64,000 nucleotides of DNA from a virus, in the IMG/VR virus record IMGVR_UViG_3300023235_000008, positions 1 to 64,000 of that record. One strand, given 5' to 3'. Below are positions 51,705-53,216 of this stretch, piece after piece. Position numbers and translations under genes: made by a program. Position 1 is the stretch's first letter. Each line of letters starts with the position of its first letter. Under the pieces are notes generated by a model. It was given only the letters and a program-made list of their open reading frames with translations, was not told the origin of the DNA and did no database searches.

Positions 51705-52565
51705 TTATTCAAACAATGATGAAAACCTGTCATCTTTTGAGTTGTACATAAGAATCTCAGTAGCTTTCTTTGCTTCGTGACCGCCTTCGACCACCTTGCG
51801 ACGACCGGCAGTATATGTGACTGGGAACCTATGAACTCTAGCTGCCCTATTATCAAAGAACCCGTCGCCAGAATCCCGATTACACAACCATACGTTATAA
51901 TTATTCTCTACAACGCCAATGAGTTTTTCGGTTTCACTATCGGCGAATGCCGCATTATAATCGGCGAACGAATTACGATATGGTGGATCATAGAATGTAA
52001 AATCAGATATTGGAACATTAGACCAATCCCCACACGTGATCACGATATTCTTATTAGATAATAGTGTGTGCCAACATTCCATAACTTCTCTATCATATAC
52101 CGCAGTTGTTTGGGTTAGTAACCCACTCGGTGTGCCATAGCGATTATTGGTGTTTTTGTTAATTTGCCATATACCATTAAACCCGGTCTTCATAAGAAAA
52201 TACAAAGTTGCCGCTTCTTCTGGCATTGACCACTTCTGATAATCATATGCGTGTTCCTGTCGAATATCATAGTAGTATTTTTTACGATCTTCTTTGGATA
52301 ACGGAAGGTATTTCGCTTCGTATGCGTTAATGGTATTCGTAAACTCGCTGTAGTTATTCTTAATCGCAATGTAAATGTTTATCAATGATTGGTTAATGTC
52401 ATTGATATAACAAGTTTTTGGATCATAGCGTTTAATGACGTGTAAAAACATAGCTCCGCCACCAAAGAAGGGTTCGGAGTATGTTTTTACACCATTCGGA
52501 AAGAATGGCTGGTAATGCTTGAGCATTTTGTTCTTGCCGCCAGCCCATATGTATAATGGTTTCAC
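51705..52565 (-). CDS. dam: DNA adenine methyltransferase, Dam/D12 class
   Basis: 286 residues. WAGGKNKML (motif X), SEPFFGGGAMF (motif I) and TFYDPPYRNS (motif IV DPPY) identify a D12-class N6-adenine methyltransferase such as Dam or M.EcoRV/M.MboI-type enzymes. MKTGFNGIW is also typical. It overlaps the nuclease gene start-to-stop by ATGA, so it should methylate the same site that nuclease cuts. Recognition sequence cannot be read. Confidence 0.9.
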   Translation of the reverse strand: MKPLYIWAGGKNKMLKHYQPFFPNGVKTYSEPFFGGGAMFLHVIKRYDPKTCYINDINQSLINIYIAIKNNYSEFTNTINAYEAKYLPLSKEDRKKYYYDIRQEHAYDYQKWSMPEEAATLYFLMKTGFNGIWQINKNTNNRYGTPSGLLTQTTAVYDREVMECWHTLLSNKNIVITCGDWSNVPISDFTFYDPPYRNSFADYNAAFADSETEKLIGVVENNYNVWLCNRDSGDGFFDNRAARVHRFPVTYTAGRRKVVEGGHEAKKATEILMYNSKDDRFSSLFE

Positions 52566-53110
52566 TGTTTTAATGCCTTTTCGATAATACTATTAACGTA
52601 TTCTTGTGTGAACCCTTCTTCGTGACCGAAGAAAGAACTGCCTTTTGTATACAGTTCATTCCACACACGGGTGTCTTTAAACACAGCTTCGTCAATAGCC
52701 AACGCTACGTTGAATGTGCGATACATGGTTGACTTTGGTAGAGTACCTGTGCCGCTACAAAAAGTAACATACATAACGTCTGGATTTATATGCTGTGCAA
52801 CCGCCCGATTTTTAAACCAACGCTCACATGCATTTCCTACTGGACCTTGTTTCTTTGCTTCGGCAACCAATACTAGTTGGTCATCCTTATCGAACCACAT
52901 CCCGCCATCGGGTGACATACCAACGCATCCATCTTTGCCAAAGATGCCATTGCCAGTGATTGAAGATTTGCATGTATATCCTTCAATGGTCATGGACTTT
53001 GTATTCTTTAACATTTCGTCCAGTCTTTTAGAATCCGTGTCGTATGCTGTAGTTCCCGCTTGAATACCGCCACGGAAGTCCTTATTGTAAGTGCTTAATA
53101 CTTTTGTCAT
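52562..53110 (-). CDS. EcoRI-like type II restriction endonuclease
   Basis: 182 residues. PDGGMWFDKDDQLVLVAEAK is very close to the EcoRI active-site region, with Asp in PDGG and the Glu-Ala-Lys triad end. GNACERWFKNRAVA resembles EcoRI's GNAIERSHKN segment. EcoRI has about 277 residues, so this is a shorter family member lacking some arms. AAAGG lies before the ATG. It forms a complete R-M pair with the downstream methylase. Confidence 0.82.
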   Translation of the reverse strand: MTKVLSTYNKDFRGGIQAGTTAYDTDSKRLDEMLKNTKSMTIEGYTCKSSITGNGIFGKDGCVGMSPDGGMWFDKDDQLVLVAEAKKQGPVGNACERWFKNRAVAQHINPDVMYVTFCSGTGTLPKSTMYRTFNVALAIDEAVFKDTRVWNELYTKGSSFFGHEEGFTQEYVNSIIEKALKQ

Positions 53111-53130
53111 TTATTTATCCTTTCCAAAAA

Positions 53131-53216
53131 TGATTGACATTATTGATTTAATAGATTACACTTCATTTAACAATGATTGACATCATTGATTTAATAGATT
53201 ACACTTCATTTAACAA
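53131..53216 (+). repeat. Tandem 43-bp duplication carrying two promoters
   Basis: Units 53131-53173 and 53174-53216 differ at one base. Each holds TTGACA (53134, 53177), a 17-bp spacer and TACACT (53157, 53200), so the gene at 53240 has two nearly identical promoters in series. Confidence 0.75.

Follow-up and report, generated by a model that had tools for sequence, protein, structure and literature searches.

Two overlapping genes in a 64,000-nucleotide stretch of viral DNA (IMG/VR record IMGVR_UViG_3300023235_000008, positions 1 to 64,000; hereafter, the window) encode an EcoRI-like nuclease and a Dam-class methylase, which we interpret from their sequences and genomic context as an active viral type II restriction-modification (R-M) system directed at AATT in host or rival DNA that lacks the modification (estimated probability about 0.8). 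A preliminary description of the window had already suggested that the two genes form one unit, and this view is now supported by profile comparison, by the conserved order of the genes and their joint occurrence, and by how AATT is distributed across genomes.

The window derives from a virus record of 230,059 bp that encodes a T4-type gp23 capsid protein (E 9e-100), which agrees with the earlier assignment to a T4-like genome. Both open reading frames are intact, lie on the minus strand where they had first been placed (Table 1), and run opposite to the flanking plus-strand genes. Their overlap, likely a means of translational coupling, had been given as ATGA; this is the usual form among relatives, whereas the window carries GTGA, with a GTG start for the methylase. 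Upstream of the nuclease gene, tandem 43-bp repeats include a 6-bp dyad and, on the opposite strand, promoter-like hexamers, and represent a possible operator or promoter.

Table 1 Features of the nuclease-methylase cassette and their coordinates in the window.
Feature	Position	Strand	Description
EcoRI-like restriction endonuclease gene	52562..53110	-	182 aa, ATG start; PHROG 2400
D12/Dam-class adenine-N6 DNA methyltransferase gene	51705..52565	-	286 aa, GTG start
GTGA, nuclease stop/methylase start overlap	52562..52565	-	Read from sequence
PDGG, catalytic Asp (residue 68, EcoRI D91)	52901..52912	-	P and D invariant in 42 relatives; aligns with EcoRI PDGG
E-A-K, catalytic Glu84 and Lys86 (EcoRI E111, K113)	52853..52861	-	Alignment of relatives and EcoRI-family comparison
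GNACER, counterpart of the AATT-reading GNAIER of EcoRI (residues 140-145)	52820..52837	-	Alignment, conservation
DPPY catalytic motif, methylase residues 193-196	51978..51989	-	Invariant in 34 relatives
Two tandem copies of a 43-bp unit, dyad AATGATTGACATCATT in one copy	53128..53215	.	Upstream of the nuclease gene

Kinship of the nuclease with EcoRI is evident from both motifs and profiles. The catalytic Asp, Glu, and Lys and the GNAxER segment occur in EcoRI order, as first noted from the window alone, and are invariant across 42 non-redundant relatives, with no loss of catalytic residues; in the window protein, PDGG occupies residues 67-70, the strand VLVAEAKKQG holds E84 and K86, and GNACER spans residues 92-97. 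Such invariance, together with a gene order that is found again in phages far apart in sequence, places the pair far beyond chance. Fourteen residues (P, D, G, G, E, K, Q, G, N, A, E, R, N, and G) are shared without exception by EcoRI homologues and the phage proteins. The AATT core bound by EcoRI is wedged apart by the side chain of A142 and receives hydrogen bonds from N141, A142, and R145 (PMC4081073). When a profile of the 42 relatives was run against every PDB chain, EcoRI was the sole match up to E 5 (best 0.026), aligned at PDGG, EAK, and GNAIER, and hhalign linked the nuclease family to five EcoRI-family plasmid enzymes at 97.5% (E 8e-12), compared to 5% for a MunI-like phage family and 0.0% for an unrelated family used as controls. 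Pfam returned no match to the window nuclease up to E 1, and the 22-bit cut-off of the Pfam EcoRI family (PF02963) was not reached, the best of the 42 relatives attaining only E 0.029; by sequence, we thus file the nuclease as EcoRI-related but outside PF02963 membership. The window protein matches PHROG 2400 (E 3e-25), listed there as "unknown function".

Structure prediction gave a confident nuclease model (pLDDT 84.9, pTM 0.80) with the element order expected of a PD-(D/E)XK fold, namely strand 70-73, strand 79-87 carrying E84 and K86, helix 95-108 starting in GNACER, strand 113-119, and helix 128-144. This agrees with the fold proposed beforehand. A Foldseek search of the PDB yielded nothing below E 0.05, and EcoRI was absent from the top 50. 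The weak PDB matches obtained were mostly to GTPases and were discarded, and the sole significant match among viral models was the S-RIM2 relative of the nuclease.

The Dam-class identity initially given to the DPPY methylase is confirmed by matches to Pfam MethyltransfD12 (PF02086; E 8e-30, 104.8 bits, cut-off 22) and TIGR00571 (dam; 132.4 bits, cut-off 114.85). Its best matches in structure databases are DpnII and Dam, both GATC enzymes, with the DpnII methylase closest, while among the matches listed for the phage collection, the best are in S-RIM2 records (about 55%), followed by others at 32% or less.

Relatives of the nuclease are encoded by 114 viral contigs and, among records of Synechococcus phages, by 65, so that an R-M pair on a T4-like genome is not the oddity it had been taken for. 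None were detected in contigs of bacterial and archaeal genomes with the patterns used, nor in plasmids. Physical linkage of nuclease and methylase, one mark of a type IIP system, was observed in 39 of 46 non-redundant loci, with the methylase downstream and either adjacent (31 loci) or up to 1.4 kb away (8 loci); a 4-bp gene overlap was found in 22 of the 46. Nuclease and methylase protein distances also co-vary (Mantel r 0.63, 0/5000 permutations). Where a gap separates the two genes, the intervening ORFs include DUF6551-like proteins (L008:4639-5682 and L042:1472-2503, ParB-like by eye), with similar-looking inserts in loci L061 and L072, the latter without a Pfam match. In one 190-kb genome (G010), the nuclease stands alone, yet another member of this methylase subfamily, sharing 56% identity with the window enzyme, is encoded 19 kb away; pairing is therefore a property of the genome and not of the locus alone. 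In S-CREM2, the methylase near the nuclease is more distant (32% identity). For a virion protein of this phage annotated as Cas9 (L007:1317-3926), Pfam gave nothing up to E 0.05, and that annotation looks doubtful.

The genomes themselves carry a footprint consistent with the predicted specificity. We estimated AATT observed/expected ratios from a dinucleotide model for 19 nuclease genomes and 18 nuclease-free T4-like cyanophages. All 19 nuclease genomes were depleted (median 0.21, range 0.00-0.56), while the nuclease-free phages had a median of 0.78, with 16 of 18 within 0.73-0.93 (p 9e-7; p 1.6e-6 with one value per clade). AATT ranked first of 136 tetramers under both background models, and although AATT was singled out in light of the EcoRI homology and is in that respect not independent of it, the ranking across all tetramers is unbiased. 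Among phages of the same host, WH7803, the ratio was 0.22 in S-RIM2 and 0.19 in S-BM1, which carry the nuclease, and 0.74-0.87 in the nuclease-free S-RIM8, S-IOM18, S-M1, S-CAM1, and S-PM2. All ten NAATTN contexts were comparably low (0.18-0.34), hence the site is probably the 4-bp AATT itself. Two nuclease-free phages were exceptions, P-RSM1 (HQ634175) at 0.35 and ACG-2014f (KJ019148) at 0.44. In P-RSM1, CAATTG is also missing (0 of 32 expected), and a weak match to the nuclease (E 1e-3) in this phage corresponds to an ORF without any of the motifs and was attributed to chance.

Depletion is complete in one lineage (G007, G008, and G009), in which the nuclease is intact and the contigs contain no AATT at all, with 331 sites expected in G007 and 510 in G008. 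As G007 and G008 are 84-88% identical, this absence has been maintained over time. No D12 methylase was detected in these contigs, which are 74-112 kb fragments of genomes that could encode one elsewhere. The position of the methylase is instead occupied by a 2OG-Fe(II) oxygenase gene (L064:5521-6090 and L076:5521-6090, with a Pfam match for L064). Among methylase-less loci, only this lineage is AATT-free, and a general rule by which such loci would be lower in AATT than paired ones was rejected (pooled 0.24 vs 0.23).

AATT depletion is not exclusive to the EcoRI-like nuclease family, since phages encoding the same methylase subfamily with another or no recognized nuclease are partly low in AATT as well (pooled 0.43). 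In some of these phages, the methylase adjoins MunI-type nucleases (PF11407; 29.7 bits for L283, cut-off 25); L283:4226-4780, L292:2723-3205, and their relatives are MunI-like, with a GNAHER motif. In others (L248, L313, L280, and L273), ORFs of 287-320 aa without a Pfam or PADLOC match are located just upstream of the methylase, and loci of this type, combining the methylase with an uncharacterized protein family of ~290-320 aa, have AATT ratios of 0.07-0.42. This family is a possible non-homologous nuclease partner of the methylase. The association of one methylase subfamily with MunI-type or uncharacterized partners suggests an exchange of nucleases around a methylase that persists with its site.

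Three other explanations were weighed against an R-M system acting at AATT. In the first, which we consider unlikely, the two enzymes recognize different sites: the methylase would be a GATC-type Dam serving anti-restriction or packaging, and the nuclease would act alone on AATT against the host, with the phage relying on AATT loss for its own safety. The structural resemblance of the methylase to GATC enzymes, the AATT-free lineage with no methylase detected, and the divergent S-CREM2 methylase are all compatible with such a division of labor. It leaves unprotected, however, the many AATT sites that other nuclease phages retain (715 in the window phage, 344 in 80 kb of G014, and 166 in 40 kb of G020), and both the pairing of this methylase subfamily with MunI-type nucleases and the conserved translational overlap speak for a common target. 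It is very unlikely, in our estimation, that host restriction systems are what drove the loss of AATT, with the phage pair having another target or decaying. Many palindromes are indeed avoided, and 13 hexameric palindromes are absent from the 230-kb source genome of the window, e.g., AGATCT (49 expected), CGATCG (41), and GGATCC (34), which, judging from the sequence, is a strong footprint of several restriction specificities; AATT-poor genomes without the nuclease, P-RSM1 and ACG-2014f, also exist. Because so many palindromes are avoided, a palindrome count on the window genome alone is uninformative, and only the comparison with nuclease-free phages is informative: on a shared host, phages lacking the nuclease show no shortage of AATT, while low counts of CCGG, AGCT, and GGCC are common to phages with and without it, and the invariance of the catalytic residues argues against decay. 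Finally, a free-standing PD-(D/E)XK homing endonuclease with an incidental methylase neighbor is extremely improbable, for although cyanophages do carry homing endonucleases, such as F-CphI of S-PM2 (PMC6083498), and the cassette opposes its flanking genes, enzymes of that kind have long, rare targets and should not bring about the genome-wide loss of a 4-bp word, the same methylase subfamily follows the nuclease in most loci, and the recognition segment is that of EcoRI, unlike those of known homing enzymes.

Under the favored reading of an R-M system, we infer enzymatic activity, methylation motif, timing, and role as follows. The small nuclease would be a trimmed EcoRI relative, probably dimeric, that reads AATT through GNAxER and cuts both strands, while the coupled Dam-type methylase probably places an N6-methyl group on adenine at that site too. 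Phage DNA, once packaged, would then arrive pre-methylated, so that a nuclease made early could attack the unmethylated host chromosome, contributing to host shut-off and nucleotide supply, as well as the DNA of rival phages, which would at least be vulnerable given the abundance of AATT in phages that share the host but lack the nuclease. One point counts against the R-M reading: unless its methylation is incomplete, a phage that methylates its DNA should have no reason to avoid the site. The site loss suggests either gaps in protection while the DNA replicates or a nuclease older than effective protection. Methylation may lag behind fast replication, so that AATT sites would be lost over evolution. 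With 715 sites remaining, the window phage would still need its methylase, while one lineage seems to have shed the methylase and purged every AATT. We lean, by a little, towards a broader view in which widespread lytic T4-like phages wield an AATT-cutting nuclease offensively, with two interchangeable means of self-protection, i.e., coupled methylation or the total removal of AATT as in the G007/G008/G009 lineage.

Several known systems resemble this pair in part. MluCI is specific for AATT. The EcoRI system shares the PDGG/E-A-K catalytic residues, the GNAIER segment, and a nuclease gene preceding the methylase gene, but the EcoRI nuclease is far longer (277 aa vs 182 aa), is about 21% identical, and contains two inserts missing in the phage protein, one of ~21 residues that separates EAK from GNAIER and one after GSNF; it recognizes GAATTC, where the phage site is probably AATT, and its partner belongs to the EcoRI_methylase family (PF13651) and not to the D12 class. 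The combination of an EcoRI-type nuclease with a D12 methylase thus differs from classical EcoRI, as had been pointed out, but it has a bacterial precedent on the Paracoccus marcusii plasmid pCP157_17, where an EcoRI-family nuclease gene (PF02963, 60 bits) overlaps a D12 methylase gene (PF02086, 67 bits). That system is plasmid-borne, with the methylase gene first, a distant nuclease of 238 aa, and a methylase without BLAST-detectable similarity to that of the phage. MunI (CAATTG) reads the same AATT core, and its phage counterparts share the methylase subfamily, yet the window nuclease is nearer to EcoRI than to the MunI-like family. Chlorella virus PBCV-1 encodes the type II R-M systems CviAI and CviAII, with m6A methylases and 4-bp sites, GATC and CATG (PMC7248222); it is a eukaryotic algal virus with other sites, and these sites have been detected as m6A-methylated, whereas AATT is largely purged in the nuclease phages.

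What is already known comprises the Paracoccus plasmid pairing, chlorella-virus R-M, and the GenBank label of the S-CREM2 nuclease, "restriction endonuclease EcoRI"; the S-CREM2 paper treats the methylase merely as a DNA-stability gene (PMC10665884). No earlier account of cyanophage R-M or AATT avoidance was found in a library of open-access papers. New here are the recognition of a widespread phage R-M family, the prediction of AATT as its site, backed by whole-genome counts, and a lineage free of AATT, and the function proposed from sequence is new for PHROG 2400.

Restriction enzymes are usually viewed as bacterial weapons against phages, but lytic phages, including marine cyanophages, seem to own one, and the loss of AATT in nuclease-bearing phages suggests a working DNA-cutting weapon as opposed to a defense gene acquired by chance. 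Protein and genomes alike allow the specificity of this nuclease to be read, and cultured phages carrying the system, S-RIM2 and S-BM1, make each step testable. The AATT-free lineage offers a natural experiment, in which a genome lives with a frequent-cutting nuclease and no methylase found. Taken as a whole, these results would give PHROG 2400 a function and provide a handle on how cyanophages may dismantle host DNA or exclude rivals.
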